38,816 nucleotides of DNA. It comes from a virus. The notes below the pieces were generated by a model. It had not been told where the DNA came from and did no database searches. It saw nothing but the letters and a program-made list of their open reading frames with translations. A program made the translations under genes and the position numbers. Positions within the stretch are counted from its first letter, which is position 1. Each line of letters starts with the position of its first letter. Location: positions 1-38,816 of the IMG/VR virus record IMGVR_UViG_3300037264_002724. The stretch is one strand, 5' to 3'. Shown piece by piece: positions 7,586-37,349 of this stretch.

Positions 7586-8266
7586 ATGCCAATTTGTAAC
7601 GAACAACTGCCTTTAAATAAAGCTAATATTTTAGAAGACCTTGCTTTCGGCACCCCTTGCGGGAACGGCACTCAGTTGCCTATGGGTCTTGGGGCTATAG
7701 GTAATGGTAAGGTTATTTTCAAAAGGAAGTTTCGTTGGACGTTTGAAGTCGAGTTTTGTTGTGATCCAGGTCCACCAAAGGTTGTTGCAAGAGAATTTGT
7801 TAAGATTGGTGCGCGTCCACAGATAGATTTTGAAGAAGTTGAAATTAACTACCTCAACGGCAAGATGTGGATTCCTGGCAAGGGTACTTGGCAGACAATG
7901 ACAGTAACATATTATGATGTTGCTGGGGCTACTGATAATAATGTAAACACATCAACGGTTCTTGCTTGGATTGCTACAATTTATGATTTTAACGACCCTG
8001 TATGTTTACAAATGAACAGTGTTCCTGCGCAATATGAAGGTATTGCTCGTCTAGTTCTTTGGGATGGTTGCGGTAATCCGCTTGAAGGCTGGATATTGCG
8101 TCACGTTTGGCCACAGTCGGTCAATTGGGGCGATTTGGATATGTCAAGCTCCGAAGAATGTACGGTAGAACTCACCTTACGATATAGTGAAGTAAGTTAT
8201 CAAAACTTCTGCGGTCCAACTGCAACGAAGTGTCCATGCGGGCCATGTCCTGTTGCAACACAGTAA
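7586..8266 (+). CDS. 19: Tail tube protein 1, T4 gp19-like
   Basis: 226 residues with a strong AAGGAG nine bases before the ATG. The core (residues about 45-205) has the tube-family layout: an RKFRWTFEVEF strand, 'ARPQIDFEEVEINYLNG', 'PGKGTWQTMTVTYYD', a surface loop, then 'LWDGCGNPLEGWILRHVWPQS' and 'NWGDLDMSSSEECTVELTLRYS', the closing hairpins of the gp19 barrel that stacks as hexamers under the sheath. The N-terminal 40 residues and the Cys-rich tail (CGPTATKCPCGPCP) are extensions. A hairpin terminator follows, so this gene may be the end of a transcript with the sheath. It is probably the major tube subunit because it directly follows the sheath. Confidence 0.88.
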   Translation: MPICNEQLPLNKANILEDLAFGTPCGNGTQLPMGLGAIGNGKVIFKRKFRWTFEVEFCCDPGPPKVVAREFVKIGARPQIDFEEVEINYLNGKMWIPGKGTWQTMTVTYYDVAGATDNNVNTSTVLAWIATIYDFNDPVCLQMNSVPAQYEGIARLVLWDGCGNPLEGWILRHVWPQSVNWGDLDMSSSEECTVELTLRYSEVSYQNFCGPTATKCPCGPCPVATQ

Positions 8267-8280
8267 TCAAAATAAAAATC

Positions 8281-8312
8281 AAAAAGAGGGGGATTTCTTC
8301 CCCCTCTTTTTT
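8281..8312 (+). terminator. Rho-independent terminator after tail tube 1
   Basis: A 13-bp stem (8281-8293 with 8299-8311; AAAAAGAGGGGGA / TCCCCCTCTTTTT), a five-base loop and a T tract. It lies 15 bases after the tube stop and 25 bases before the second tube gene, separating transcription of the two paralogues. Confidence 0.9.
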
Positions 8313-8336
8313 CATATATACATAGAGGTTTATAAT

Positions 8337-9092
8337 ATGGCTTGCACAGGCGAACCGATGGGCTTTTTCCGTCCTGAATGGGGTGGAACAGGTAATGCTG
8401 GGACAGTAAAAAGAAAATTCCGTTGGCTTTTCAATATACAGAACATTACTCTTGGTCACAATACAGCTTTGCCATGTATGAAAGCTGGTCGTCCAAAGAT
8501 CAACTTTAGAGAAATGCAGGCAGAGCATTTGAATGAAACAATCAGTTATCCTAGTAAACCAGAATGGCAACCAATCCAGCTATCTCTTTACGACAGATGC
8601 ATTAATGTTCAAAACCCCATTTTCACATGGTTAAAACAGCAATACAATCCAGTGCCAACGACTGATGAATTTTTGGCTGGTTGTAGCGACTGGTATCCTT
8701 GCATAGATGACTTGTCATTTAAACCATGTTGTGATTTACAGTTACTTGACGGTTGTGGCAACATATTAGAAGCATGGACCCTGGAGCATTGCTATCCCCA
8801 AAACATTGATTGGGGAGAACTAGACATGAATAGTATGGAAATCGTCACTGTTGATTTTAGTCTAAGATATGATAGAGCATTTCAGACATTGCCAGCAAAC
8901 GATCATGAAATATACAAAAAAACAGAATGTGCTAGTTGCGTTGATCCTAAAGATTGCGGAGCGGATGGCGAGGAGAGTATGAGTTCAATGAACATAACCG
9001 CCATGTTAAGAAATGCAAACATGAGCGTAACGGTCCAAAATGATTTCAGAAGTTTAAACCTCGATGCACCTGATTTTGTAATGATAATTTAA
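8337..9092 (+). CDS. Tail tube paralogue 2 (gp19-like fold, probable baseplate or tail-end tube protein)
   Basis: 251 residues. ATG 8337 is chosen (AGAGG nine bases upstream); upstream codons in frame lie in the terminator. The protein repeats the tube pattern of its neighbour: KRKFRWLFNIQNI, GRPKINFREMQAEHLNETI, 'PSKPEWQPIQLSLYDR', LQLLDGCGNILEAWTLEHCYPQN and 'IDWGELDMNSMEIVTVDFSLRYDRA'. It has insertions with several Cys (CSDWYPCIDD, CASCVDPKDCG) and a 50-residue C-terminal extension. Many myoviruses carry extra tube-like proteins such as T4 gp48/gp54 that start the tube on the baseplate or end it, so a specialised ring is more likely than a second main tube. Its own expression unit follows the terminator. 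Confidence 0.78.
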   Translation: MACTGEPMGFFRPEWGGTGNAGTVKRKFRWLFNIQNITLGHNTALPCMKAGRPKINFREMQAEHLNETISYPSKPEWQPIQLSLYDRCINVQNPIFTWLKQQYNPVPTTDEFLAGCSDWYPCIDDLSFKPCCDLQLLDGCGNILEAWTLEHCYPQNIDWGELDMNSMEIVTVDFSLRYDRAFQTLPANDHEIYKKTECASCVDPKDCGADGEESMSSMNITAMLRNANMSVTVQNDFRSLNLDAPDFVMII

Positions 9093-9348: not shown

Positions 9349-9879
9349 TTACCCTTTTACAACATAATTATTAGTATTTTGTGGTTTGTGTCTCAGTAAA
9401 ACCTTCTCCACTTGGTTTTGCAGGAAATCGTGATATTTCTTCTTTAGTTCATTATAATTTCTAGCGGTTCGATAGAGTTGTCTATAATGATTAAGGATAC
9501 AAGTCGTCATATAGTTGAATGCTTTGCCTTTTTGGGGATCAAAGCGATCAATCTTCTCGAAACAGATCATTACGCCTTCTTGGATAGCATCATCTATGTC
9601 AATGAGATTAAATTTAGCATATCTGACTATGTTTTCCGACAATGTAAGAAAAGCAAGAGCCAATTGTTGTTGAGTTTCAACATAAGCTGAACTAGCAAAT
9701 TTATGCATGTTTGAAAATCTGTCTAATCGTAGGATAAAATCCACACAATCATTGCCGCGATTGATCGCGCCTTGCAAATCTTCAATACAAATCTCATATT
9801 TGCTCTTTTCCCTCTTGGACTGTTGAAACCTGGCAATAACTTCTTCGAAAATCTTGTTATTTAAATACTCCGTACTCAA
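9349..9879 (-). CDS. 55: Late-transcription RNA polymerase sigma factor, T4 gp55-like
   Basis: 176 residues. A TTG start is preferred because AAGGAG lies a few bases upstream. The central part has a minimal sigma region 2: FNLIDIDDAIQEGVMICFEKIDRFDP followed by KGKAFNYMTTCILNHYRQLYR, which corresponds to core binding and -10 recognition helices. There is no region 4, as in T4 gp55, which recognises only the TATAAATA octamer and relies on the clamp. The C-terminal 40 residues are basic with a short hydrophobic tail. The divergent placement beside tail genes and adjacency to a candidate co-activator fit a late regulator. Confidence 0.72.
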   Translation of the reverse strand: MSTEYLNNKIFEEVIARFQQSKREKSKYEICIEDLQGAINRGNDCVDFILRLDRFSNMHKFASSAYVETQQQLALAFLTLSENIVRYAKFNLIDIDDAIQEGVMICFEKIDRFDPQKGKAFNYMTTCILNHYRQLYRTARNYNELKKKYHDFLQNQVEKVLLRHKPQNTNNYVVKG

Positions 9880-14672: not shown

Positions 14673-15422
14673 GTGGCTGCATTAAAAGACCGATATCAAA
14701 ACCCAACAATTGGTGATACAGTAAGGCTAAAATTCTTTGTCTCAAATTCCAACATGACTGCCGAAGTGCAAACTATTAATGAGATAAGAATATACTATTT
14801 AGATCAAGATGTTTGCAAGTGCGACCCTGTTACAATGGGAAGAGTGCTAGTACAAACCATACCAGCGTCAAGCGTCGTTAATCCTGCTCAGGGTGAATAT
14901 TACATTGATTTATACTTAGACCCAATAATTTACACCAAACTAGGTCGTTATGTAGATGAATGGGAAGTTGTGTTTCAGCCTGGCGATACCCCAGCCAATC
15001 ATGACCAGCTATTTCAGGTTTTTTCTGAATTGTGGTACACAACCCCCATCCCTATAGTTTATGACTTTAGTTTCTATTTCCAGCCAAATAAGATGAGATT
15101 TGGTGAAGTAAAGTCTATTGAAATAGAAATTATACCTAACGTGCCAAGAGCTACTGATTTATGCACTTATTATGAGAACCTAGCCATTTCAGCCCAGCTT
15201 TTTGTGTTTATAAGTCAGCGATGCGGTGATTGTCTGCCTTGTGAAAGTGATTTGAGGTTAGTGGTTGACAGGCAACCAACTGATTATAGAGAAAAAAATA
15301 GAGGTTTTTATAAGATAGACACAAGGAAATTTGACTGTGGAATATATGATATATGGTTTGAGTTAGATTTTGGAACGAACATCTATATATCGGACACAAA
15401 CCAATTCCAAATTTATTCTTAA
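14673..15422 (+). CDS. Beta-rich virion protein, unknown (249 aa)
   Basis: GTG start at 14673 with AAGGGG upstream. The sequence alternates strands and turns in a two-domain pattern, each reading like an immunoglobulin-type sandwich (TVRLKFFVSNSNMTAEVQTI..., then DFSFYFQPNKMRFGEVKSIEIEII). A CGDCLPC pair near residue 190 may bind metal or form disulfides. There is no signal peptide. Ig-like folds in phage tails are usually surface decorations or baseplate connectors. Unrecognised beyond that. Confidence 0.55.
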   Translation: MAALKDRYQNPTIGDTVRLKFFVSNSNMTAEVQTINEIRIYYLDQDVCKCDPVTMGRVLVQTIPASSVVNPAQGEYYIDLYLDPIIYTKLGRYVDEWEVVFQPGDTPANHDQLFQVFSELWYTTPIPIVYDFSFYFQPNKMRFGEVKSIEIEIIPNVPRATDLCTYYENLAISAQLFVFISQRCGDCLPCESDLRLVVDRQPTDYREKNRGFYKIDTRKFDCGIYDIWFELDFGTNIYISDTNQFQIYS

Positions 15423-15432
15423 AAGGAGACGA

Positions 15433-15888
15433 ATGGATAGAGAGGTAAGATGTAGTATTAAGGAAAAGAAAATTGAAAAAGCAAAAGTCGATATGCAAGG
15501 ACACCCAGCACACTCGCCAAATATAATAATCCCAAGAACTTTCAGATGGACGTTAACTAACGAAAATTATCCAGATATTCATTACTGGATGAAATCCATC
15601 AAAACTGAATACGCTGGGAAAAGAATTATTATTGAGGTCTTTGACGATGCTAAAGGTGCAGTTTTCAGTTGGATTCAAGCTTTAGTAGATGAAAACAAAA
15701 ATGCTGCCACCGCTACTTTAACACATCTAGATGGATGTGGAATCCCAATTTCATTAATTAATTTCATTGGACTGAAAATAGCAGACCACTCGACCGCATA
15801 TGATTACGGAAGCAGCGAAATTCTCACACATAAAGTCGTAATCACATATAACAATGTAAAAAGAATCAACCAATTTAACTTGGTTTAA
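15433..15888 (+). CDS. Tail tube paralogue 3, short tube-like protein
   Basis: 151 residues; strong AAAAGGAG before ATG 15433. Core pattern again matches the tube family: PRTFRWTLTNE, a middle 'RIIIEVFDDAKGAVFSWI', then LTHLDGCGIPISLINFIGLK and YGSSEILTHKVVITYNNVK. It lacks the long insertions of the other two. It is last in the hub gene cluster, so it may be a baseplate-proximal tube protein (role of T4 gp54/gp48). The similarity to the other tube proteins is by eye. Confidence 0.6.
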   Translation: MDREVRCSIKEKKIEKAKVDMQGHPAHSPNIIIPRTFRWTLTNENYPDIHYWMKSIKTEYAGKRIIIEVFDDAKGAVFSWIQALVDENKNAATATLTHLDGCGIPISLINFIGLKIADHSTAYDYGSSEILTHKVVITYNNVKRINQFNLV

Positions 15889-15898: not shown

Positions 15899-15967
15899 TA
15901 CGTCAAAATCCGCCATTGAAAAAGCAAATTCTACGATTTCTGCTTACCAATGGCGGATTTTGACGTA
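15899..15967. repeat. Perfect 20-bp inverted repeat, 29-nt loop
   Basis: Left arm 15899-15918 (TACGTCAAAATCCGCCATTG), right arm 15948-15967 its exact reverse complement. The loop can pair internally (AAGCA/TGCTT). No T run follows, so it is not a standard terminator. It marks the boundary between the AT-rich tail genes and the GC-richer ParB-like/AAA+ island. Confidence 0.9.
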
Positions 15968-16091: not shown

Positions 16092-17348
16092 ATGTCTAAG
16101 AAGTCCCGACAGAGAAAATGGCGGCGGGTTGAAGCACAGAAACGTCAGATTGCGCTGAATCCAGACGTGAGTGATGGTGGAATGAGTGAAAACTCCATCG
16201 GTGATCTTAGGTTACTGCTGACGAAGATGGGTGTCGCTAAGTCTGTTGAGGGTGCGGCGACCGTCCCAAGTCAGGTTGCTCTCGCCACATCGAACCTTCC
16301 TGTTGCTCCCGCTCCTGTTACGCCGCCTGCTCCGCAAGTGATCCTTCTGCCTGGGCCTGCGCATTGGCCAGTCTGTCCTACAAGCTGTGATGCCGCTGAA
16401 TGGCGTCGGGCGATGGAACACTACGATTACTACTTACAATGCGCTGAGAAGGATAAGAACGCAAAGCCGTGGTTCCAGTACCCGCGCGTGAGCCATCAGT
16501 ATAGCGAATTCGTCTATATCACACCTGAAATGGCTCAGAAGTTGCTGGACTACAACCCCATAAACCGCAAGATTAAAATGGGGCATGTGGAAGGTCTAAA
16601 GCGGGATATTCAGAACCACCGCTGGCTGCAAACGCATGAATCCATCGCCGTTAATAAGCTCGGCAATATGCACGATGGACAGCATCGCGCGCTGGCTATT
16701 ATCAAGGCGGGGGCTGGTTGGCCAATCTATGTGACGTGGAACGTGCCGCCAGAAGGCATTTATGCGACTGACAGCGGCGACAAGCGGCCTATCAACGAAA
16801 AGTTGGGGTTCCTATTCCCCGACTTGAAGATGACTCACAAGACGGCGGCGCTCTGCCGTTCTATGATGTGGGGATTGAGCAATCGCGGCCTTCGCTACAC
16901 GGAGTCTGAGATTGCTACGTTCATGCTCAAGCATCAGCGGATTATTAACTGGATCATGACTAACGTGCGCAGCAAGTACGTTAATTACCGCGCTGACTTG
17001 CAAGCAGTCATCGGCAAGGGCATGTTGTGGTGGGGCGAGGAAATCGTCGGGCCGTTTGTGGAGCGATTGCGGACAGTGCAATTCTGTGGTGAAGGCGATC
17101 CCGCAAAGGCGCTGTATCTTTGGCTGCAAAACGCCAAGAAACAGGGACGGCGAACCTCCTATGTTTCGCCAATCATCTACTACAAGAAGGCGCTGGCCGC
17201 TATTCACGCACACGCTCAGAAGCGTGACGCCAAGCGCATCACCTCGAAAGAACAGGATATTTTCGAGTGGTTGCCTGGGTGGAATGTTCCAGACGACGCA
17301 CCTGGCGCGGGCAAAGTTTTCATCCACAGTGACGAAAACCAGCCCTGA
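16092..17348 (+). CDS. ParB/Srx-like domain protein with extra C-terminal domain
   Basis: 418 residues. ATG 16092 is chosen because TTTGGAGG lies four bases upstream; an in-frame ATG at 16050 has none. Basic N-terminus, then a Pro/Val/Ala linker (about 55-90), then the ParB-like fold: VYITPEMAQKLLDY, 'HVEGLKRDIQNHRW', and the family's catalytic/nucleotide segment NMHDGQHRALAII (about 192-204). The C-terminal 170 residues are homologous to the separate protein at 20207-20791 (shared G-K-x-x-L-W-x-G, PFVE, F-x-G-x-GDP, DIFEW). GC content and codon use are clearly higher than in the tail genes. ParB-fold proteins of phages can be CTPase/clamp or nuclease-like; the activity here is unknown. A promoter-like TTGCGA/TAAATT pair sits upstream. 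Confidence 0.65.
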   Translation: MSKKSRQRKWRRVEAQKRQIALNPDVSDGGMSENSIGDLRLLLTKMGVAKSVEGAATVPSQVALATSNLPVAPAPVTPPAPQVILLPGPAHWPVCPTSCDAAEWRRAMEHYDYYLQCAEKDKNAKPWFQYPRVSHQYSEFVYITPEMAQKLLDYNPINRKIKMGHVEGLKRDIQNHRWLQTHESIAVNKLGNMHDGQHRALAIIKAGAGWPIYVTWNVPPEGIYATDSGDKRPINEKLGFLFPDLKMTHKTAALCRSMMWGLSNRGLRYTESEIATFMLKHQRIINWIMTNVRSKYVNYRADLQAVIGKGMLWWGEEIVGPFVERLRTVQFCGEGDPAKALYLWLQNAKKQGRRTSYVSPIIYYKKALAAIHAHAQKRDAKRITSKEQDIFEWLPGWNVPDDAPGAGKVFIHSDENQP

Positions 17349-17362
17349 GTGTAACTAAGACG

Positions 17363-17410
17363 AACAGGAAAAGAATGGTGGACACAAGTTCACCATTCTT
17401 TTCCTGTTTT
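17363..17410 (+). terminator. Terminator-like 18-bp hairpin after ParB-like gene
   Basis: Perfect 18-bp stem (17363-17380 with 17391-17408, AACAGGAAAAGAATGGTG and its complement), ten-base loop GACACAAGTT, ending in TTTT. It lies 14 bases after the stop and insulates the AAA+/VWA operon from the ParB-like gene. It can also work in the reverse direction because both arms are A- or T-rich at the ends. Confidence 0.82.
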
Positions 17411-17435
17411 ACTTTCGCCTAATTTGTAGTATAGT
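17408..17435 (+). promoter_or_regulatory. Candidate sigma70-type promoter for AAA+/VWA operon
   Basis: TTTACT (17408-17413), 16-base spacer, TATAGT (17430-17435). The next gene's ATG is 31 bases downstream with GGAG at 17461. The -35 match is moderate. Confidence 0.45.
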
Positions 17436-17465
17436 AAGGGAGGACCACTCAAACAAAGTTGGAGC

Positions 17466-18953
17466 ATGGCTATGCAAGTGATGCGGGAATTAAGGGATGA
17501 AAAACTTGATTTCTGGATTAAGAATAATCTCAACGTTCTTTTCGTCGGTCATTATGGCGCGGGCAAAACGACACGAATCATAGAAGCCTTTAAGAGAAAC
17601 AATCTAAAGTTTAAGCCTTATAGTGCTGCCACGATGGACCCGTGGTGTGACTTCATCGGCGTGCCGAAAGTCGTCAATGACGATAAGGGTCCATATCTTG
17701 ATTACATTCTCCCCCGCGACCTACGCGACGATACGATTGAAGCAATTTTCATGGATGAATTCAACCGCTCCCACAAGAAAGTGCGGAATGCGGTTATGGA
17801 GTTACTTCAGTACAAAAGCATTAATGGAAGACCATTTAAAAATCTTCGTTTCATTTGGGCCTCAATTAATCCAGAAGATGAAGGTGATTATCAGGTCGAA
17901 GCTCTAGACAAGGCACAAAAGGACCGCTTTGAAGTCCAGGTTGGCGTTCCTTATGAACCAAAACTAGCCTACTTTGCAAGTAAATTTGATGCTCGCCAAG
18001 CTAAAGCAGCAGTTGGATGGTGGCAATCACTGACTCCTGAACAACAGATGGAAGTAAGCCCGCGTCGTCTTGAATATGCGCTTAAGATGTTCAACATCCC
18101 TGGCGGCGATATCAAAGACGTGCTACCGCATTCTACAAACCCTTCCAAGCTAAGTAATTTACTCAAGACTGGTCCCGTTGATGAACGCTTGAAAGATTTG
18201 TTCAATAAAAATGATCTGGATGCCGCTAGAAAGTATCTGCAAGTTGAAAACAACTACGCGGCTGCATCAAGGTATCTTATTGGTCATATTCCAGAAGATG
18301 TAGACACGCACGAATGGATGCTGTTTTTCTTACAATCTATCACCACAGAAAAATTGGCATCCATGTTGGCTAGCAATGAAGCTGCCTATAACTTCATTGT
18401 TGCCAATTGTGATAAAGTGACAATCTTCTCGCGGCTAATCAGAGACGCCTTGAAGACAAATACTGATAAGATTCTGGTCCGAAGACTGAAGAAAGAAATC
18501 GACAACAATAAGTTGTTGACGGCGGTGTTCGGAAATAATGCCGCAACCAACACGGCAGAGAAACCTTATTTTAGCCACCGTATTACGGCGGTTCAGTGGT
18601 CAACTCGTATCGCTGGCTGGCTCTCTCAGCCACTAGATACAACGCCACAACGCACAAAAGTCTATGATGATCTTGTGGAAAATATTCCACAGACTCTGAC
18701 ACTCAACGAAGCAGTTGATACTTTGGAAATGATTAACATGCTGGCATGTCGCTCACATGCGGACACCATTACAAAACTCCGTCATTTGGTTGGCATTGTT
18801 AATCATTGCGTTGACAGGATCAATCAGGCAAGTGGGTTATCTTGGAATGAAATTTTGACTAACTATGGTCAAAAATTCAGCGGTCTTTTAGACAAGATGC
18901 GGGACAATGGCTTGGAAAAGAAGCTATATTGTCCTGTAAAAAAGGCTAACTAA
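17466..18953 (+). CDS. MoxR-like AAA+ ATPase
   Basis: 495 residues; GGAG six bases before ATG. Walker A GHYGAGKT (28-35), Walker B IEAIFMDEF (91-99), sensor 1 WASINP with N135, arginine finger in DKAQKDRF (R154) and sensor 2 SPRRL (about 198-202). This order is that of the MoxR/RavA group, which remodels or loads partners that carry VWA domains. The C-terminal 280 residues are helical and specific to this protein. The next gene, with a VWA domain, starts on the overlapping TAATG, so the pair is made together. The ATPase probably powers maturation or metal insertion of a target. MoxR plus VWA pairs are common in bacteria; this one is phage-borne. Confidence 0.8.
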   Translation: MAMQVMRELRDEKLDFWIKNNLNVLFVGHYGAGKTTRIIEAFKRNNLKFKPYSAATMDPWCDFIGVPKVVNDDKGPYLDYILPRDLRDDTIEAIFMDEFNRSHKKVRNAVMELLQYKSINGRPFKNLRFIWASINPEDEGDYQVEALDKAQKDRFEVQVGVPYEPKLAYFASKFDARQAKAAVGWWQSLTPEQQMEVSPRRLEYALKMFNIPGGDIKDVLPHSTNPSKLSNLLKTGPVDERLKDLFNKNDLDAARKYLQVENNYAAASRYLIGHIPEDVDTHEWMLFFLQSITTEKLASMLASNEAAYNFIVANCDKVTIFSRLIRDALKTNTDKILVRRLKKEIDNNKLLTAVFGNNAATNTAEKPYFSHRITAVQWSTRIAGWLSQPLDTTPQRTKVYDDLVENIPQTLTLNEAVDTLEMINMLACRSHADTITKLRHLVGIVNHCVDRINQASGLSWNEILTNYGQKFSGLLDKMRDNGLEKKLYCPVKKAN

Positions 18954-20197
18954 TGATTACTCATGCCGAGTGGATGGAGATTAGTCTTGCCCTAGAAGAC
19001 CACCATGCCATATTCTATGAATTGTGGCACATGGGTCGTCCATTCTTTACTGATGAAATTGAAACCGCTGCCGTCCGCTTCGCGGGCAGTAGCGGTGAAT
19101 TCGTTGAATTCCTATTCAACCCCGATTATTGGAACAACCTTACGCCTTATGAACGTCTGTTCGTAATTTCACACGAATGCCTACATGTCGTCTTAAATCA
19201 TGGCATCCGAACCACAAAAGGCAAGGACGCACCACGAATTAACACGGCGCTGGATATCGTCGTCAATCACCTGTTGGTAAATGCATTCGGATTTGACCGC
19301 TCACGGATCAGGGATGAAGATGTATTGTGCTGGACAGACACAACCTTCAAGGATGATCCAAAGATGGCAGAGATTCCTACGAATGAATCGTATGAATATT
19401 ATTATCAGAAAATACCAGAGTCAATGGTGATTAATGTATTCACGATTGACGATCATTCCTTCCTGAATGGGGACGTGGATACCATTATAGGCAAGTTGGA
19501 TAGCAGACTTACCCAAGAAGAAAAAGATAGTATTAAGGACATAATTAAGAAACATTACACCAAAGAGAGAGTGGAATGTGAAAACGAACATGGTGGATAC
19601 GGTTGTGGCAACTGGTCCTTTATCAACGTGGCTCCAGTTGCAGCGAAAAAGAAATGGGAGACTGTGATATTCAAATGGAGTCAAAAATACATGCGGTCAG
19701 GTTTGGATGAACATGAACAATGGGCGCGAGTGGCCCGTCGTTTTGAATTGCTACCGCAAGAAATCATCCTGCCAAGTGAAATGGAGGATGAATCAAAGGA
19801 TTTCGACCGCATACCTATCCACCTGTACATGGACACGTCTGGTTCTTGTGTAAAGTACAAAGACCGATTTTTTCGGGCGGCTATGTCCTTACCAAAGGAT
19901 AGATTTGTAGTAAGATTGTTTTGTTTCGACGTTGCGGTTCATGAAACAACGCTTGTCTCCCGTAAAATTTACGGTGGCGGTGGCACTTGTTTTAATATCA
20001 TCGAACGAAATATTCAAAACGTCATGAAGGCTGAAAAATCAGCCTATCCAGAAGCTGTTTTCTTAATTACAGATGGGAAGGGGAGTCCTGTTGTGCCAAA
20101 ATTCCCTGAACGTTGGCACTGGTTCATGACTAGGAATGCTTCGTCTGCTTATATTCCAGACAAAAGCAAAACTTACAAACTCGACAACTTTGAATAG
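18953..20197 (+). CDS. VWA-domain protein with HExxH metallopeptidase-like N-terminus (DUF2201-type)
   Basis: 414 residues. N-terminal part has SHECLH (HExxH at 74-78) and TALDIVVNHLL (99-109), the layout of the DUF2201-type predicted metallopeptidase with the third ligand in the second motif. The C-terminal part is a von Willebrand A fold with intact MIDAS: DTSGS (294-298), GGGGT (T345) and LITDG (D374). A Cys/His/Gly-rich insert lies between. MIDAS proteins bind a divalent metal and usually carry a substrate to the MoxR ATPase, whose gene overlaps this one by one base. Function in a phage is unknown; target remodelling or proteolysis of a host or virion protein are options. Stop TAG. Confidence 0.8.
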   Translation: MITHAEWMEISLALEDHHAIFYELWHMGRPFFTDEIETAAVRFAGSSGEFVEFLFNPDYWNNLTPYERLFVISHECLHVVLNHGIRTTKGKDAPRINTALDIVVNHLLVNAFGFDRSRIRDEDVLCWTDTTFKDDPKMAEIPTNESYEYYYQKIPESMVINVFTIDDHSFLNGDVDTIIGKLDSRLTQEEKDSIKDIIKKHYTKERVECENEHGGYGCGNWSFINVAPVAAKKKWETVIFKWSQKYMRSGLDEHEQWARVARRFELLPQEIILPSEMEDESKDFDRIPIHLYMDTSGSCVKYKDRFFRAAMSLPKDRFVVRLFCFDVAVHETTLVSRKIYGGGGTCFNIIERNIQNVMKAEKSAYPEAVFLITDGKGSPVVPKFPERWHWFMTRNASSAYIPDKSKTYKLDNFE

Positions 20198-20206
20198 GAG
20201 GAAATG

Positions 20207-20791
20207 ATGGGTCGCATTACAGCCAGGGGCAACCGATTCGATGGCATTGCAAACCAAATGATGAAAGGTTGCAATGGTAGAGTCAAAGCCAATAACGTTG
20301 CTGGAACCCAGCACGAAATGGAGGACTTTAAGAGAGTTTACAATGACACAATCACTTATCTTCAAAGCACTCTACCAAAAGATTTAAGTGTGGCGGTCTG
20401 TGGCGCACTTGGCAAGGCGATCCTCTGGCATGGTAAGAAAACCATGCAGCCGTTTGTAGAAGCGGTTGCAAATCGTGAATTCAAAGGCCACGGTGATCCA
20501 TGCTTGGCACTGTGGGAATGGCTCATTCGATATAACAAGCGCAACAACACGGAAGAAATTTACCGTCGAACCGTCACAGCCATTCGTATTTTTTTGCGGG
20601 GCGGAACCTTCAAAGGTCATTTGAAACCCGCCTTGGATGACCTTTTTGAATGGCAGAATAACTATCGCGTTATGTGTCAACCAAAGAGGAATCAACATAC
20701 AGTTGATGCAAGTTCAAAATCACCGACGAAACAATCTGATGAAGCGATCTTGGCCGACGTAGAAGATGCGCTCAGTGGTTCACCCACTTAA
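20207..20791 (+). CDS. C-terminal-only paralogue of the ParB-like protein
   Basis: 194 residues. ATG 20207 is chosen because AGGAGG is five bases upstream (the ATG at 20204 has only two bases of spacing). Residues about 60-155 align with the C-terminus of the protein at 16092-17348: LGKAILWHGKKTMQPFVEAV vs IGKGMLWWGEEIVGPFVERL, FKGHGDPCLALWEWL vs FCGEGDPAKALYLWL, DDLFEW vs DIFEW. The ParB-like domain is absent. The protein follows the VWA gene by nine bases, suggesting one operon. It could be a partner or antagonist that shares an interaction surface with the full-length protein. Confidence 0.65.
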   Translation: MGRITARGNRFDGIANQMMKGCNGRVKANNVAGTQHEMEDFKRVYNDTITYLQSTLPKDLSVAVCGALGKAILWHGKKTMQPFVEAVANREFKGHGDPCLALWEWLIRYNKRNNTEEIYRRTVTAIRIFLRGGTFKGHLKPALDDLFEWQNNYRVMCQPKRNQHTVDASSKSPTKQSDEAILADVEDALSGSPT

Positions 20792-21562: not shown

Positions 21563-21623
21563 GAAGTTAAATTAGTTCAAATTATACTATTCTTAAATTA
21601 TTTTGTCAACTATAAATAAATCG

Positions 21624-22112
21624 GTGACAAATGACGACAGAACTTTTGGCGAGAGAATAGCAGATGACGTAGCGACCTTCGCAGGATCGTGGAAGTTCAT
21701 CATTCTATTCGGCACAATCCTGCTGAGTTGGATTGTATTTAACTCGTTAGAATACCTCAAGCCCTATCATTTTGACCCTTACCCTTTTATTTTGCTCAAT
21801 TTAGTCCTTAGTTTTGTGGCTGCATTTCAGGCTCCATTCATTATGATGAGCCAAAACAGATCAGAAAAGAAACAAGATATAGCTTACAGAACAATTTTTA
21901 TAGAACTAAAAGAGTTGCTTGAACAGGATATAGCTCATGAAGAAGAAATTAAAGGACTAGAAAGGCAAATACAAACAGATTTGGAAAGATTGATTGCCAC
22001 GCAAAACAAATTGCTGGAAGCCCTCAGTCAAGCAGTCAAGATAGGTCAGTTAACAAGTGAAGGAATTGCAGAAGTTTTGGAACACTTAGAAGATGAGACT
22101 ACTGAGCAGTAA
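21624..22112 (+). CDS. DUF1003-family small membrane protein
   Basis: About 162 residues. GTG 21624 is used; a TTG at 21603 extends the frame by seven residues, and TATAAATA (21611-21618) lies between the two. Pattern: GERIADDVATFAGSWKFII, two transmembrane helices (FIILFGTILLSWIVFNSL; FILLNLVLSFVAAFQAPFI), then MMSQNRSEKKQDIAYRT, the family signature at the cytoplasmic end. The rest is a long acidic coiled coil. DUF1003 proteins are inner-membrane proteins with no proven function, common in bacteria; a phage copy is notable. It could act on the host envelope. Confidence 0.72.
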   Translation: MTNDDRTFGERIADDVATFAGSWKFIILFGTILLSWIVFNSLEYLKPYHFDPYPFILLNLVLSFVAAFQAPFIMMSQNRSEKKQDIAYRTIFIELKELLEQDIAHEEEIKGLERQIQTDLERLIATQNKLLEALSQAVKIGQLTSEGIAEVLEHLEDETTEQ

Positions 22113-23018: not shown

Positions 23019-24659
23019 TTATGTAGTATTTGGAAGATTTTTTTCCGATTTCGATTTAATAGCAGCTTGAATTAAACCATTAAACAATGGGGCAGGACCA
23101 CCTAATCTACTTTTAAATTCAGGATGTGCTTGTGTAGCTACAAAGAATGGATGCACAGCCCGATCCAACTCCATCATTTCGATTAGCTTAGTATCAGGAT
23201 TAACTCCAGAGGTTACAAATTGAACCTTCTCAAGATGACCAACATACTCAGCGTTTACTTCATAGCGATGGCGGTGCCTTTCACTGATTGTAGTCTTCTT
23301 ATACAATTCATGTATGATACTCCCTTTAACCAATTCACAATCAAAAGCACCCAACCGCATTGTCCCTGACTTCTTTCTGATCTTCTCCTGCCCTTCTACA
23401 AAGTGAATTACAGGATGCTTGGTATCTTTGTCGAACTCAACACTGTTAGCCCCCTCCAGGTGACAAAGATTACGAGCAATCTCAATAACAGCACATTGTA
23501 GACCCAAACAAATACCCAAGAAAGGGATTTTCTTCTCTCTTACATACCTAATAGCTCTAATCTTGCCTTCCACACCAGATGAATCAAACCCGCCTGGAAC
23601 AATAACACCGTCTATATCTTCAAAATACTTCCAGACGCCACGCATATCCTTGGCTTGTTCAAGCTCTTTAGCATTAATCCATTTGATATCAGCCCTGACT
23701 TCATGTTCAACCGCAGCATGATATACAGCTTCTTTTAAAGATAAATAAGCTTCATCACAGTTGTCATACTTACCCACAATGCCTATATTAACAACAGGCA
23801 TATCGGCATGATCGACGTATTTTTCCACTAGGTCACGATATTTGTGGATACGGCAACCATTTCGTTTCAAATGGAATTTATCAGCAATCAAATCGTCAAT
23901 ATGTCGGTTATAGAACTCAATGGGCACTTGATAGATAGTTTTAACGTCAGGGGCGTCAAAGACGGCTTCACGGGGCACATTGGTTAAATGGGCAATTTTA
24001 TCAAGCATTTTAGTAGGCATTTCACGATCAATACGACATAGTAAAATATCAGGCTGTAAACCAAAAGACTGCATTTCCTTGACACTATTTTGCAATGGTT
24101 TTGTCTTAAACTCTTTGATTGTTGGAATCCACAGGATAGGAGCGACCAACATAATTAAAACATCATCCCAATTCTTCTGTTTGAATTGACGTATAGCTTC
24201 TAGATAAGGACCGCTTTCCAGATCGCCAACGGTCCCACCAATCTCACAAATTACAATTTCTGCGTCTTTACCCAATTCCTTTAAACGGTTTTGTATTTTA
24301 TCGGTTAAATGTGGTATAACTTGAACTGTTTGACCGAGATATTTACCTTCCTCTTCTTCTGCCAGTAATTCTTTATAGAGTGTACCACTGGTCATGATAT
24401 TCTTGCCTGATACTGGTACACCAATAATACGTTCATAATGTCCTAAATCTAAATCAGTTTCGCTGCCGTCATCACATAAAAACACTTCGCCATGCTCTCT
24501 AGGGGCGAGAACTCCTGCGTTTGTGTTGAAATAAGGGTCAAACTTAATTGGCTGAACCTTATGGCCACGCAAACTCAATAGAAATCCAATGGAAGCAGCG
24601 GAAATGCCTTTTCCTGTGCCACTAATAACACCCCCAAGAATTGCTATGTATTTAGCCAT
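23019..24659 (-). CDS. pyrG: CTP synthase (PyrG)
   Basis: 546 residues, full length for the family (about 535-550). It makes CTP from UTP, ATP and glutamine. The N-terminal synthetase domain has GGVISGTGKGISAASIG, the ATP-binding loop, here SGTGKG where bacteria usually have SSLGKG. It also has the ICEIGGTVGDLE metal/UTP site and PIKFDPYFNTNAG. The C-terminal glutaminase has the oxyanion loop IVPGGFDSSG, nucleophile C384 in GICLGLQCA, and the His-Glu pair in AHPEF (about 512-514). All catalytic residues are intact. ATG 24659 has GGAG upstream, and its first base overlaps the preceding gene's end. CTP supply for an AT-rich genome plus DNA repair fits the RNR genes nearby. Confidence 0.95.
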   Translation of the reverse strand: MAKYIAILGGVISGTGKGISAASIGFLLSLRGHKVQPIKFDPYFNTNAGVLAPREHGEVFLCDDGSETDLDLGHYERIIGVPVSGKNIMTSGTLYKELLAEEEEGKYLGQTVQVIPHLTDKIQNRLKELGKDAEIVICEIGGTVGDLESGPYLEAIRQFKQKNWDDVLIMLVAPILWIPTIKEFKTKPLQNSVKEMQSFGLQPDILLCRIDREMPTKMLDKIAHLTNVPREAVFDAPDVKTIYQVPIEFYNRHIDDLIADKFHLKRNGCRIHKYRDLVEKYVDHADMPVVNIGIVGKYDNCDEAYLSLKEAVYHAAVEHEVRADIKWINAKELEQAKDMRGVWKYFEDIDGVIVPGGFDSSGVEGKIRAIRYVREKKIPFLGICLGLQCAVIEIARNLCHLEGANSVEFDKDTKHPVIHFVEGQEKIRKKSGTMRLGAFDCELVKGSIIHELYKKTTISERHRHRYEVNAEYVGHLEKVQFVTSGVNPDTKLIEMMELDRAVHPFFVATQAHPEFKSRLGGPAPLFNGLIQAAIKSKSEKNLPNTT

Positions 24660-24907
24660 CAGTAACTCCACTGATTATAATTTCCGATAGTCTTTAATTC
24701 CTCTATCGTATAAGATTTTCTAGAACAGGAATAACAAAAGTCAATTGATCTTATGTGTTTTTGGAAATTGCCTTCTTCGGTATATCTGCTAAAGCTTACT
24801 TCAACAGCAATATAGCCATCTTTGGCCTTGTTATAAACATGTTCCATTAATCCGTCAAACCTCTCTGTCTCCCTACCGCAAATACAGCAAATTGAATTAT
24901 ATTTCAT
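24659..24907 (-). CDS. Small zinc-finger-like protein (82 aa)
   Basis: Cys pairs CCICGRE (N-terminus) and CYSCSR (near residue 59) can hold one zinc. The ATG lies inside the end of the methyltransferase gene (11-base overlap), and the stop overlaps the pyrG start, so the three genes are translationally linked. No further function is visible. Confidence 0.6.
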   Translation of the reverse strand: MKYNSICCICGRETERFDGLMEHVYNKAKDGYIAVEVSFSRYTEEGNFQKHIRSIDFCYSCSRKSYTIEELKTIGNYNQWSY

Positions 24908-25562
24908 TCACTAATTGAGTTTCTTCTATTCGCTTTTTCGCTATTGCCGCATATTCTTCGCTGAGTTCAAAAGCCAGGTATTGCCTTCCCTCTAATTTTG
25001 CAGCTACAAGAGTTGTGCCGCTACCAACACATGGATCAAAAACAATATCTCCCACGCTAGAGCTAACTTTAACAAGATACCGAAATAGATCAAGTGGTTT
25101 CTGTGTGGGATGTAGTTGTTTTCTCACCACAGGATAACGCCATACTGTATTTTTGCAGTGTTCATTAAATACTGCCTTCTTTTTCTTGCCATAAACGCAA
25201 CATTCAACGCCAGAAAGCCATAAATATTGACCATTTACAGGACTTGGGTTGGTTTTTTCCCATATACACAATCTTGTTGACAATCCATATTTAATTAATT
25301 CTGCTCTCAGAAAACTGACTTGTTCCGTTGAACAAAAGATATAAATACTGCCTTTTGTTACACGAACCACTTCTGCAACAAATACATCCAAATCAAAGGT
25401 TTTATCGTCAGCATTCGTCTTGTCAAAGTTTCGTAATCCATTTGAATCTCGATTTACCACGTCGTAAGGAATATCAGTTAAAGTCAATTCCACCGAATCT
25501 GACACCATTTGTTTCATCAATTCTATGCAATTGCCAGCAGTGATTTTGTTCATTTGTTCCAT
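24897..25562 (-). CDS. DNA methyltransferase (N4-C/N6-A, beta-class order)
   Basis: 221 residues. Motif IV TDIPYD near residue 29 (DIPY in place of DPPY), a middle region with IYIFCSTEQVSFL, then HPTQKPLDLFRYL and motif I DPCVGSGTTLVAAK near the C-terminus. This order is typical of the beta group, which methylate adenine N6 or cytosine N4. The target site cannot be read. It starts 10 bases from the divergent papain-like gene, and the nuclease-like gene 26296-26970 lies beyond it, so a self-protection or modification role is possible. Two start ATGs (25562, 25553) are both possible; no ribosome site is visible. Confidence 0.78.
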   Translation of the reverse strand: MEQMNKITAGNCIELMKQMVSDSVELTLTDIPYDVVNRDSNGLRNFDKTNADDKTFDLDVFVAEVVRVTKGSIYIFCSTEQVSFLRAELIKYGLSTRLCIWEKTNPSPVNGQYLWLSGVECCVYGKKKKAVFNEHCKNTVWRYPVVRKQLHPTQKPLDLFRYLVKVSSSVGDIVFDPCVGSGTTLVAAKLEGRQYLAFELSEEYAAIAKKRIEETQLVNEI

Positions 25563-25572
25563 AGATAGTTAC

Positions 25573-26334
25573 ATGAGTAAAAATACAAAAAAGGGTTATG
25601 GCTGGAAAAACAGTATTCCAGACTTTCGTGATTTTCATTATGCAGCACCAATGAACCTTACGGCCACGCCACCGTTGGTTGATTTAAGACCTGGATGCCC
25701 AGCGGTTTATGACCAAGGTAGTCTTGGTTCCTGCACAGCACAAGCCATTGCTGCATTAGTTGCATATTTGAAAAAGAAACAAAATAAACAAGTATTTACA
25801 CCTTCCAGATTGTTCATTTATTACAACGAAAGGGCATTAGAGGGAACAATCCAAGAAGACGCTGGGGCTACCATTCGTAGCGGGTTCAAAGTTGTGTCTC
25901 AATTAGGTAATCCACACGAAGCCCTTTGGTGGTATAATATCAGTAAGTTTGCTGTAAAACCAAATAGAAAAGTTTATGTAGATGGGTTAAACCATCAAAT
26001 TTTACGTTACACCCGTGTTGACAATTCTAGATTAGAAGACATGAAAACATGTCTTGCAAGCGGGTTCCCAATTGTAGGCGGTTTTGCCGTTTATAGTTCA
26101 TTTGAGACTTCTACAGTTGCCAACACTGGCATGGTTCCTATGCCATACCGCAACGAAAGAATGCTTGGTGGTCACGCAATTGTAGTCGTTGGTTATGATG
26201 ACGCCAAACAACGATTTATAGTCCGTAATAGTTGGGGCATGTGGGGGGATAGAGGCTATTGCTATATGCCATATGCTTATCTTTGCAACATGCAACTAGC
26301 AGACGATTTCTGGACTGCTACATTTGTTGAGTAA
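25573..26334 (+). CDS. Papain-like (C1A) cysteine protease
   Basis: 253 residues. All catalytic elements are visible: VYDQGSLGSCTAQA (oxyanion Gln and nucleophile Cys), GGHAIVVVGYD (His), RNSWGMWGDRGY (Asn). No signal peptide and no long propeptide: the mature-type domain starts within 40 residues. ATG 25573 is used; an in-frame upstream ATG would start inside the divergent gene. C1A proteases are found in a minority of large phages; possible roles are virion maturation or cleaving a host protein. It ends 39 bases inside the convergent nuclease gene. Confidence 0.85.
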   Translation: MSKNTKKGYGWKNSIPDFRDFHYAAPMNLTATPPLVDLRPGCPAVYDQGSLGSCTAQAIAALVAYLKKKQNKQVFTPSRLFIYYNERALEGTIQEDAGATIRSGFKVVSQLGNPHEALWWYNISKFAVKPNRKVYVDGLNHQILRYTRVDNSRLEDMKTCLASGFPIVGGFAVYSSFETSTVANTGMVPMPYRNERMLGGHAIVVVGYDDAKQRFIVRNSWGMWGDRGYCYMPYAYLCNMQLADDFWTATFVE

Positions 26335-34942: not shown

Positions 34943-35031
34943 GGAAACGATTGAAAGTGGCTATTCTACCTAGTTTGCTAAACTAGCAGGCGGGGAAACC
35001 CGCCTTGTGGGTTCGACGCCCACCGTTTCCG
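34943..35031 (+). tRNA. tRNA-Ser (anticodon GCT), long variable arm
   Basis: GGAAACG/CGTTTCC acceptor, anticodon stem CTAGT/ACTAG with loop TTGCTAA, a long variable arm (GGCGGG...CCCGCC), T arm GTGGG/CCCAC, discriminator G. No encoded CCA; followed by CT. Reads AGC/AGU. Confidence 0.93.
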
Positions 35032-35032
35032 C

Positions 35033-35147
35033 TTGGTGGTGTGGCGGTTCGCACGCGAGCAATAGGGTGCGGACGGCTGGCCTGGCGGTGAAATTCCGTC
35101 TGAAAAACAAGGTCATAGTCCGAGTAGCACTTTAAGCCTACCACCAA
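35033..35147 (+). ncRNA. Structured 115-nt spacer RNA between tRNA-Ser and tRNA-Leu
   Basis: Outer stem TTGGTGGT (35033-35040) with ACCACCAA (35140-35147), perfect eight pairs. Inside: GCAC/GTGC (about 35051/35067), GGAC/GTCC enclosing TGGCCT/AGGTCA (one G.U), which encloses GGCGG/CCGTC. It starts right after the CT trailer and ends two bases before the next tRNA. There is no ORF. It does not fit the tRNA fold, and the outermost pairing argues against an HDV-like ribozyme layout. T4 also has stable non-tRNA RNAs in its tRNA cluster. Class unknown. Confidence 0.5.
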
Positions 35148-35149
35148 AT

Positions 35150-35231
35150 GGTCATGTGGCGGAATTGGTATACGCGCGAGTCTTAGAAACTCGTTCCGAA
35201 AGGAGTGTGGGTTCGACTCCCACCATGACCA
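35150..35231 (+). tRNA. tRNA-Leu (anticodon TAG), long variable arm
   Basis: GGTCATG/CATGACC, anticodon stem CGAGT/ACTCG, loop CTTAGAA, variable arm TTCCGAAAGGAGT, T arm GTGGG/CCCAC, discriminator A, then CT. Normal class II Leu; reads CUA. Confidence 0.92.
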
Positions 35232-35237
35232 CTGTTA

Positions 35238-35320
35238 GGGTGTACTACGACTGTGGGAAGCGAAATCGGCTGTAACCCGATTGTACTCAGTGCTAAGGGG
35301 TTCGAATCCTCATACACCCA
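35238..35320 (+). tRNA. tRNA-Tyr (anticodon GTA), copy 1
   Basis: GGGTGTA/TACACCC, anticodon stem ATCGG/CCGAT, loop CTGTAAC, variable arm GTACTCAGTGCTA region, discriminator A, then CT. D arm and T stem are weak (4 bp with a mismatch), so function is less certain than copy 2. Confidence 0.78.
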
Positions 35321-35325
35321 CTCAT

Positions 35326-35409
35326 GTAGCGTTTGGACATTGGCAAGTCCACTTGGCTGTAACCCAAGCGCCCTTTTGGGCATTGCAGGTTCAACTCCTG
35401 CACGCTACA
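35326..35409 (+). tRNA. tRNA-Tyr (anticodon GTA), copy 2
   Basis: GTAGCGT/ACGCTAC, D stem GGAC/GTCC, anticodon stem CTTGG/CCAAG, loop CTGTAAC, variable arm GCCC/GGGC, T arm GCAGG/CCTGC, discriminator A, then CT. Perfect stems. Five bases after copy 1; sequences differ, so not a recent tandem duplicate. Confidence 0.92.
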
Positions 35410-35411
35410 CT

Positions 35412-35495
35412 AGCGATGATTGATGTAGTCCGCGTAAATTCGGGGTGCCCTCAATTAAAGTGAATAAGGGCGACTTTCGGCTTTATTCAGTCGCT
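35412..35495 (+). ncRNA. Structured spacer RNA after tRNA-Tyr copy 2
   Basis: Closing stem AGCGA (35412-35416) with TCGCT (35491-35495); inner 8-bp stem GAATAAGG/CTTTATTC with one G.U. No ORF. It begins after the CT trailer and ends five bases before the next tRNA. Confidence 0.4.
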
Positions 35496-35500
35496 TATAT

Positions 35501-35575
35501 GGCACGGTAGACCAATTGGTAGGAGTCGCCACGCTCAGAACGTGGACAGTGTGGGTTCGAATCCCTCCCGTGCTA
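35501..35575 (+). tRNA. tRNA with Leu anticodon CAG, short (class I) variable loop
   Basis: 75 nt. GGCACGG/CCGTGCT (G1.U72 wobble), anticodon stem CCACG/CGTGG, loop CTCAGAA, variable loop only ACAGT, T stem GTGGG/CCCTC with one U-U mismatch, discriminator A, then CT. Bacterial tRNA-Leu normally has a long arm, so decoding of CUG is by anticodon only; the charged amino acid is uncertain. Confidence 0.85.
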
Positions 35576-35577
35576 CT

Positions 35578-35724
35578 ATGAAAGAAGTTTTAACCAACAG
35601 AGATAAGGTTTTAGCTCCACGGCTAGGAAAAGGCTGGTGTATCTGCGATAGGGCAATTGTGTATCATTACCAGAAATGCCCTATTTGCAAGCGAAGAAAC
35701 GGTAGGAAAAGATTCAAGAAATAA
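35578..35724 (+). CDS. Small zinc-finger-like protein between tRNAs (48 aa)
   Basis: ATG exactly two bases after the tRNA (CTATG). Product MKEVLTNRDKVLAPRLGKGW, then CICD and CPICKRR: a CxC/CPIC four-cysteine metal site, then a very basic end (RNGRKRFKK). Stop TAA two bases before the next tRNA. No ribosome site, because upstream is the tRNA's 3' arm. Basic zinc proteins of this size can bind RNA; unproven. Confidence 0.6.
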   Translation: MKEVLTNRDKVLAPRLGKGWCICDRAIVYHYQKCPICKRRNGRKRFKK

Positions 35725-35726
35725 AT

Positions 35727-35801
35727 GGCACGGTAGACCAACTGGCAGGAGTCGCCACGCTTAGAACGTGGACAGTGTGGGTTCGAATCCCTCCCGTGCT
35801 A
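35727..35801 (+). tRNA. tRNA with Leu anticodon TAG, short variable loop
   Basis: Almost identical to the tRNA at 35501: GGCACGG/CCGTGCT, stem CCACG/CGTGG, loop CTTAGAA, variable loop ACAGT, discriminator A, then CT. Reads CUA. A duplicate with one anticodon change. Confidence 0.85.
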
Positions 35802-35821
35802 CTGAATGGCGGGATTTAAAA

Positions 35822-36370
35822 ATGGATCGACTTAATATAGTCTGGAATGCGGCGGATGGGGAAGTTGCTACCAGAAACAAGCTAGAAGATAGGTTGCTTT
35901 TGTTTTCACTTGTTTATGGTTTAAAACCTCAAAAATGTTTGGACATAGGGACATATAAAGGGGGGTCAGCACAAGTAATAGTTACGGCTTTGGATGAATG
36001 TGAAGAAGGAAGTGTGATATCCATTGATCCTAACCCACAAGTCAACGAAGAAGTTTGGAATAGCATTAAGCATCGCTGCACGATAATTGTGGGGCATTCA
36101 CCGCAAGACATTCCAGAAGAAACTTTTGATTTTGTGTTTATTGACGGAAACCATAATGATGTTTACAGCGACCTAAAAGCACTATATCCAAAACTGAACA
36201 CAGGAGCTTATATCTTGTGTCATGATTGCTATTATCACAATGTTGCGAAAGGAATAGAAAGAATTTTGCGAGAAACTGACCTGATTGACTGCGGAATACT
36301 TAGTAAAAAGACATTTGAAGCACGGGGTCATAAGTTTCTCGGATCAAGGTTATTAAGAACGGCCACCTAG
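35822..36370 (+). CDS. SAM-dependent methyltransferase (Rossmann class I) inside the tRNA array
   Basis: 182 residues. ATG 35822 is used; the frame is open 5' through the tRNA. Motif I is KCLDIGTYKGGSAQV, motif II-like SVISIDPNPQV, motif IV FDFVFIDGNHNDVYSDL, with a C-terminal Cys/His region (HDCYYHN). The pattern is that of the Methyltransf_24-type group, which acts on sugars or small molecules as well as RNA. The stop TAG lies inside the next tRNA (10-base overlap). Within a tRNA array a tRNA-modification role is a tempting inference, not shown. Confidence 0.72.
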   Translation: MDRLNIVWNAADGEVATRNKLEDRLLLFSLVYGLKPQKCLDIGTYKGGSAQVIVTALDECEEGSVISIDPNPQVNEEVWNSIKHRCTIIVGHSPQDIPEETFDFVFIDGNHNDVYSDLKALYPKLNTGAYILCHDCYYHNVAKGIERILRETDLIDCGILSKKTFEARGHKFLGSRLLRTAT

Positions 36371-36435
36371 ACCAACTGGTAGGAGTCGTACCTCTCAAAA
36401 GGGTAACAGTGTGGGTTCGAATCCCACGGTGGCTA
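36361..36435 (+). tRNA. tRNA with Leu anticodon CAA, short variable loop
   Basis: GGCCACC/GGTGGCT (G1.U72), anticodon stem TACCT/GGGTA (last pair T.G), loop CTCAAAA, variable loop ACAGT, perfect T stem GTGGG/CCCAC, discriminator A, then CT. Reads UUG. First 10 bases are also the end of the methyltransferase gene. Confidence 0.83.
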
Positions 36436-36437
36436 CT

Positions 36438-36578
36438 ATGATTACAAGTATTGAATGGCACAATAGACTTTGGAAAAAAATGACCTTTTGGCAGAAGACT
36501 AAAAGCGTAATCTTTTATACTGGATTGTTTATTGTGCTAAGTATATGGGACTGTTATGATCGTGCGCGAGGTAAATAA
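36438..36578 (+). CDS. Small membrane protein between tRNAs (46 aa)
   Basis: ATG two bases after the tRNA (CTATG). MITSIEWHNRLWKKMTFWQKT then a single hydrophobic segment SVIFYTGLFIVLSIW and a charged end. Stop TAA one base before the next tRNA. One predicted transmembrane helix; function unknown. Confidence 0.5.
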   Translation: MITSIEWHNRLWKKMTFWQKTKSVIFYTGLFIVLSIWDCYDRARGK

Positions 36579-36579
36579 T

Positions 36580-36665
36580 GGAAGGTTTGGGCATTGGCAA
36601 GCCCCCTCGGTTGGAAGCCGAGTACACCCGCAAGGGTGTGGAGGGTTCGACTCCCTCACCTTCCG
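36580..36665 (+). tRNA. tRNA-Ser (anticodon GGA), long variable arm
   Basis: GGAAGGT/ACCTTCC, D stem GGGC/GCCC, anticodon stem CTCGG/CCGAG, loop TTGGAAG, variable arm CACCCGCAAGGGTG, T arm GAGGG/CCCTC, discriminator G, then CT. Reads UCC/UCU. Confidence 0.93.
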
Positions 36666-36668
36666 CTT

Positions 36669-36757
36669 GGAGAGTTTGGGCATGTGGCAGGCCCACCCGT
36701 TTCGAAAACGGACAAGCCCTGAAAGGGGCTTGGAGGGTTCGACTCCCTCACTCTCCG
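36669..36757 (+). tRNA. tRNA-Ser (anticodon CGA), long variable arm
   Basis: GGAGAGT/ACTCTCC, anticodon stem CCGT/ACGG, loop TTCGAAA, variable arm AAGCCCTGAAAGGGGCTT, T arm GAGGG/CCCTC, discriminator G, then CT. Reads UCG. Three bases after the previous tRNA. Confidence 0.91.
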
Positions 36758-36761
36758 CTTT

Positions 36762-36841
36762 GGAAAGGTTGGGCTAATGGAAAGCCGCGCCATCCTAAGA
36801 TGGTCCTGAAAAGGTTGTGGGTTCGATTCCCATTCTTTCCG
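36762..36841 (+). tRNA. Ser-type tRNA with abnormal anticodon loop (CCT or CTA?)
   Basis: 80 nt. GGAAAGG/TCTTTCC acceptor, D arm as in the Ser tRNAs next to it, variable arm CCTGAAAAGG, T arm GTGGG/CCCAT, discriminator G, then CT. The anticodon arm pairs GCCAT/ATGGT, leaving only six loop bases (CCTAAG), or four pairs with eight (TCCTAAGA); no standard seven-base loop forms. If U33 is the T before CC the anticodon is CCT (Arg AGG); if the loop is shifted it is CTA (amber). Body is serine-like. Identity open. Confidence 0.65.
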
Positions 36842-36843
36842 CT

Positions 36844-37011
36844 ATGAAAGAAGATTATTGGGTTGAAAAAATTAAGGGAGATTGGTGGTGTGTATATCAC
36901 GAAACAATGGAAAAACCACTAGCCTGTTTCCCAAAGAAAAAACAAGCTGTTGCTTTTATGGGGAAAGAGATTAAAAAACATGAAATGGTTATGGTGCCAG
37001 CTAATACATAG
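36844..37011 (+). CDS. Small DUF2188-like protein (55 aa)
   Basis: ATG two bases after the tRNA's CT. MKEDYWVEKIKGDWWCVYHE then KPLACFPKKKQAVAFMGKEIK and a final beta segment: the layout of small DUF2188-like proteins (W-x-V-x-x-x-G...A...T/K...A...A). Stop TAG overlaps the next small ORF by 32 bases. Function unknown. Confidence 0.5.
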   Translation: MKEDYWVEKIKGDWWCVYHETMEKPLACFPKKKQAVAFMGKEIKKHEMVMVPANT

Positions 37012-37093
37012 ATGGTTTTGTTGGCAAAAATTGGGTTTGGTACGTTGGGGAATTAGATGCAATAAATGCGGTTGGATAGTGAAGCATAATTAA
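36980..37093 (+). CDS. Trp-rich mini-protein with CNKCGW zinc-like site (37 aa)
   Basis: MKWLWCQLIHRWFCWQKLG then RCNKCGWIVKHN. Nine aromatic residues in 37, one CxxC pair plus other Cys/His. Starts inside the previous ORF in another frame. The stop TAA lies directly against the first base of the next tRNA, the same zero-to-two-base rule followed by the other ORFs here, which supports its being real. Confidence 0.4.
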   Translation: MKWLWCQLIHRWFCWQKLGLVRWGIRCNKCGWIVKHN

Positions 37094-37178: not shown

Positions 37179-37180
37179 CT

Positions 37181-37348: not shown

Positions 37349-37349
37349 T

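Follow-up and report, generated by a model that had tools for sequence, protein, structure and literature searches.

In a viral contig of 38,816 nucleotides (IMG/VR record IMGVR_UViG_3300037264_002724, analysed at its full length and referred to here as the window), genes for a MoxR-type AAA+ ATPase and a VWA protein are found between a gene for a ParB-like protein and a shorter paralogue of it. This arrangement raises the question of what the ATPase and its VWA partner do for the virus, and whether the ParB-like neighbours belong to the same machine. We refer to the four genes, in their order along the sequence, as A, B, C and D. The source is a very large (huge) bacterial virus carrying a known kind of ATP-driven two-part remodelling machine. 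Genes B and C form this already known pair; the less expected element is the ParB-fold gene A.

All four open reading frames listed in a preliminary description of this DNA are present, and every motif named there could be located. They lie on the + strand: gene A (16092..17348) encodes an N-terminal extension, a ParB/sulfiredoxin-fold domain and a helical C-terminal domain; gene B (17466..18953) encodes the MoxR-type AAA+ ATPase; gene C (18953..20197) encodes a DUF2201-type HExxH metallopeptidase together with a VWA domain that has an intact MIDAS; and gene D (20204..20791) is a stand-alone copy of the C-terminal domain of A. The reported TAATG overlap can be seen at 18953, where B ends and C starts. 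The longest ORF of gene A opens at the first ATG, at 16050, and the start at 16092 appears to be the most likely one, because GGAGGT is found just 5' of it and the relatives in loci L001 and L003 open with the same MSK(K/R)SRQ. The four genes had been placed in a GC-richer island, which is true of gene A (53.5% GC, with a third-position GC of 61%) and not of B-D (43-46%; window 40.6%). In six out of six A-carrying relatives checked, gene A likewise has a higher GC content than its own locus.

A strong hairpin followed by a T-rich tail lies between A and B on the + strand (17363..17408; folding z -6.6), in agreement with the terminator proposed earlier. Of ten loci folded, nine have a hairpin between the two genes, and its sequence varies from locus to locus (L001, L125, L128, L130, L136, L138, L141 and L149 have hairpins of different sequence at the same place). 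Since the hairpin is present in most loci, gene A is probably transcribed on its own and B-C-D as the following unit; for the same reason, a single A-B-C-D operon is unsupported. The inverted repeat that had been noted 5' of gene A is a perfect 20-bp repeat with a 29-nt loop (15899..15967), which is identical in L002 and shorter in L003. No further copy of its arm was found in the window, and it is possible that the repeat acts as a terminator of the tail unit or as an operator for A. The suggested promoter is less well supported: promoter-like sites in the region numbered 13 against 8.5 expected (sd 2.8), which is not clearly more than chance.

Gene B carries the Walker A motif GHYGAGKTT and the Walker B motif IFMDEF, and none of its core residues varies in 14 relatives, among them gp24 of phage N4. 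The protein matches phrog_1297 (ATPase; E 1e-11), the MoxR-type family AAA_3 is matched by 10 of its 14 relatives, and the B profile matches Midasin (E 8e-10) and 2r44 (E 4e-5), which we take to be a MoxR-like structure. The N-terminal domain of C corresponds to the DUF2201 putative metallopeptidase (PF13203, E 2e-8), its VWA domain was recognized by a structural match (Z 11.6), and the protein aligns with phrog_1314 over nearly its full length (E 5e-31). Both the HExxH motif (HECLH, residues 74-78) and the MIDAS (DTSGS, T345 and D374) are intact in C, as had been claimed. In 32 diverse viral sequences, residues H74, E75, H78, N97, D101 and N105 are invariant, as are the MIDAS residues D294, S296, S298, T345 and D374. 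Judged from these motifs, B is predicted to have ATPase activity and C to have protease activity. Foldseek listed no match for the metallopeptidase domain of C or for the C-terminal domain of A as a whole, each of which was folded only within a larger model, and we do not regard these missing matches as evidence for new folds. The database label HNH endonuclease is attached to both N4 gp25 (L028:2165-3307) and phrog_1314 despite their DUF2201-type metallopeptidase and VWA sequence; we consider the nuclease label of the C family to be a misannotation, the sequence being that of a zincin plus VWA.

The B-C pair almost certainly belongs to the known phage family of MoxR / metallopeptidase-VWA pairs. 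It has all the sequence features of such a pair (Walker A and B motifs, MIDAS, fused HExxH, adjacency, and homology to N4 and jumbo-phage proteins), and almost all of the approximately 100 viral loci fetched have B and C close to each other. Phage MoxR/VWA genes had been thought to be rarely described, which is contradicted by the core genes gp24 and gp25 of Escherichia phage N4 (PMC4193335) and by the metallopeptidase-VWA version in jumbo phages, as set out in the passages of PMC7824862 that treat it. The products of gp24 (AAA ATPase) and gp25 (vWFA) are encoded by two of the 14 core genes of N4-like phages (Schitoviridae), with function unassigned (PMC4193335; PMC2784036), and these are middle rather than late genes (PMC4193335). 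They are adjacent and in the same order as B-C, and gp25 aligns with C from end to end, including the HExxH motif, N97/D101/N105, RR and the MIDAS. They differ in sharing 15-22% identity with their counterparts, in being podovirus middle genes, in the HNH endonuclease label of gp25, and in having no ParB-like neighbour annotated nearby, unlike the A gene seen here. The C profile recovers N4 gp25, which is itself a member of the profile, and finds an independent protein of the Agrobacterium jumbo phage Atu_ph07 (E 2e-23).

Group 2.2 jumbo phages carry a MoxR / metallopeptidase-vWA pair of the same domain architecture, and in the same type of phage, as B-C; the passages of the survey dealing with this pair propose that it acts in virion assembly, with processing of peptides, and differ from our case in mentioning no ParB-like gene alongside (Iyer et al., 2021; PMC7824862). 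Another viral MoxR-VWA pair, p618 (MoxR) and p892 (VWA) of Acidianus two-tailed virus, has been experimentally linked to tail development (PMC4124505), but it belongs to an archaeal virus and, according to the same passages, is without the metallopeptidase domain (PMC7824862). The pairing of MoxR with a ParB-like protein was not found described in the open-licence papers examined, some of them in excerpt.

Structure matches with modest scores support the ParB-like fold that had been attributed to A. A matches phrog_5931, a phage family without an assigned function, over almost its full length (E 5e-31), and its ParB/sulfiredoxin-fold domain, which contains the motif DGQHR, covers approximately residues 150-245 (in the numbering of the ORF that opens at 16050). 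Residues 147-245 of the AlphaFold model, which has a mean pLDDT of 71 and is most confident from residue 110 to residue 230, match CDP-bound ParB, Noc, PadC and sulfiredoxin. The top Foldseek matches are ParB-CDP and Noc (best E 6.6e-3), and structural comparison with Srx, PadC and ParB gives modest Z scores of 4.6-5.4. In ParB the CTPase fold is followed by a helix-turn-helix domain; in A the C-terminal part is helical, and the Noc and KorB alignments extend weakly into it (Z ~4). No significant relative was found when the A sequence profile was compared with the PDB. The canonical CTP-binding motif of ParB is GERR, and the corresponding motif is [DN]G[QR]HR in 12 of 12 aligned A relatives, so that the CTP sensing earlier suggested for A is doubtful. 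ParB-fold proteins are able to bind CTP, ATP or GTP (PMC12704722), which by analogy makes nucleotide binding by A plausible. With its phrog_5931 match, its ParB/PadC/Srx fold and its DGQHR-type motif, A resembles the ParB-sulfiredoxin superfamily (ParB, DndB, SerK, Srx; surveyed in PMC12704722), from which it is set apart by an N-terminal extension of ~100 residues, GxHR in place of GERR, and its MoxR-VWA neighbours.

Gene D corresponds to the C-terminal domain of A only, as proposed: it matches the C-terminal half of A (E 1.4e-9), the LW.G, PFVE, GDP and D(I/L)FEW motifs of the two proteins align, and D covers positions 138-244 of phrog_5931. Strict joint loss of A and D was considered and rejected, since in L004, where neither is present at the locus, the contig carries a distant A-like gene at another place. 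We also observed a variable accessory-gene block between A (or C) and D in two loci (L127:8230-11476 and L041:6293-10637), both loci encoding visibly similar proteins of ~380 aa and of 376/485 aa.

According to the preliminary description, the neighbourhood would be coincidental if homologues of these genes never occurred together. A search for the same gene order found A-B-C(-D) repeatedly in huge phages of diverse kinds, including L146 and L149, whose tail-side neighbours are different. We examined 21 loci with a full A homologue that could be judged, near-identical loci being counted once. In 18 of these, the first of the other three genes to follow A in the 3' direction is B, on the same strand; this count includes L134, where B is found ~1 kb from A. 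The A loci without B-C nearby are L127, L129/L131 and L133. B-C is also widespread without A or D. When 66 C proteins, clustered at 90% identity, were placed on a tree, 65 lineages could be scored for A; 13 of them carry it and 52 do not. Five changes of its presence are needed on this tree, at least four of which are forced by well supported branches. The link between A and B-C is not obligatory, because most B-C lineages are without A and three A loci have no B-C nearby. A functional tie of A to B-C nevertheless seems to us somewhat favoured.

One alternative is that A and D, as accessory genes unconnected with B-C, came to rest in a hotspot bounded by the tail cluster and the resolvase gene, and that their closeness to B-C is functionless. 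This could explain why L033/L035 (the same contigs as L129/L131; fragments of 46.9 and 85 kb) keep A-D with no B-C found, and why the genes enclosed by A and D in L127 are unrelated ones. It could also explain the setting of the A relatives in five cultured phages, where they are surrounded by DNA-metabolism genes or by unannotated sequence and where no annotated MoxR/VWA genes adjoin them in the records examined. The hairpin between A and B fits the same explanation. However, functionless closeness agrees less well with the retention of B 3' of A in most A loci, with L146 and L149, which keep the order A-B-C-D-resolvase with no tail gene detected upstream, and with the repeated changes of state of the A/B-C association on the C tree. 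We consider its probability to be a little short of even.

The genes 5' of A in the window make up a contractile-tail cluster; their products comprise a head closure-like protein, the tail sheath stabilizer, the sheath, two tail tubes, the baseplate hub and another, weakly tube-like protein. A late sigma-like factor is encoded at 9349-9879. The two tail-tube-like genes are arranged in tandem (7586-9092), and the third, weaker tube-like protein is encoded just before A (15370-15888). In most close and middle-distance relatives, B-C lies between the conserved gene T14673, which adjoins the baseplate gene, and a resolvase-like gene, whether or not A/D are present. Within the phage collection, LR756511, a 595-kb uncultured phage genome, is the closest relative. 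Among distant loci, B-C directly follows the tail sheath stabilizer gene in L069 and L071, with the sheath gene next in L071, while other distant pairs adjoin PhoH, SbcCD, DNA polymerase or exonuclease genes (L061, L083 and L093). The link of B-C to the tail is suggestive but not general, because several distant pairs are located beside DNA-metabolism genes and N4 gp24/gp25 are middle genes.

These latter observations raise the possibility that B-C targets a host or phage protein in early or middle infection (takeover, transcription or replication) and not the virion, its tail-side place being an accident of lineage. The middle expression class of the N4 pair (PMC4193335) and the distant pairs adjoining replication or repair genes both point in this direction. 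The synteny of B-C with the tail cluster nevertheless holds for most members of the near clade, whether they have A or not, and two distant lineages have B-C beside tail sheath genes; we therefore regard a role in early or middle infection as doubtful.

Conflict genes usually turn over fast; the B-C core is a phage gene pair that has been kept over a long time. That A-D form a conflict or superinfection-exclusion system with A as sensor, similar to the bacterial MoxR-vWA ternary systems (peptidase effectors and a sensing third component) proposed to counter invaders (PMC7159879; PMC12839542), is improbable: no positive evidence for a conflict role was found, there is no PADLOC match, A and D have no Pfam or PADLOC match to a third component of such systems (VMAP, iSTAND or beta-propeller) in libraries from which models for them may be missing, the neighbouring genes are those of a tail cluster, and virion assembly is the role proposed in the passages on the jumbo-phage pair (PMC7824862). 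The overall interpretation given in the preliminary description is partly supported: the locus recurs and the ParB-like fold stands, and the rarity of MoxR/VWA, CTP sensing and conflict do not hold.

Several other genes in the window are recorded here as separate observations. A DUF1003 gene (21603-22112; PF06210, E 2e-26) is kept beside the resolvase gene in near relatives, and a papain-family cysteine protease gene is found at 25525-26331 (PF00112, E 1e-10). The phage CTP synthase (23019-24671) has 63-98% identity among the relatives compared and is conserved both in loci with A and D and in loci without them, on which ground it was rejected as a partner of A. An array of 14 tRNA genes lies at 34943-38097. 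Anticodons could be called for 13 of them: seven specify Leu, four Ser and two Tyr, and these are the three amino acids whose tRNAs have a long variable arm.

We give an even chance to the reading in which B-C is a remodelling or processing machine for a tail or virion protein, with A as a nucleotide- or DNA-binding regulator or adaptor; an assembly role of B-C, taken by itself, appears equally balanced. In the assembly model, an ATP-powered hexamer of B would change the conformation of a client protein that C presents, the VWA domain of C would dock on B via its MIDAS, and the HExxH domain could possibly clip the client. The likeliest client would be a tail or other virion protein, because B-C ends the contractile-tail cluster here and in most close relatives. 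Gene A, expressed from a separate transcript, would encode a protein that binds a nucleotide and probably DNA and serves the B-C machine as a regulator or adaptor, and D may be a spare copy of its C-terminal domain.

A bolder version of this model, in which A is a ParB/sulfiredoxin-fold nucleotide switch that controls or recruits the MoxR-metallopeptidase-VWA machine in many huge phages, with D helping, is put forward tentatively and is on present evidence rather unlikely. If true, A together with B-C would constitute a viral MoxR-VWA system of a kind not yet described, equipped with a component of its own for sensing nucleotide or DNA. The N4 pair gp24/gp25 is core across a phage family, yet its function is unassigned. 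Huge phages that carry B-C beside tail genes, often with a linked ParB-fold gene, allow naturally occurring loci with and without it to be compared and suggest a specific partner for testing.
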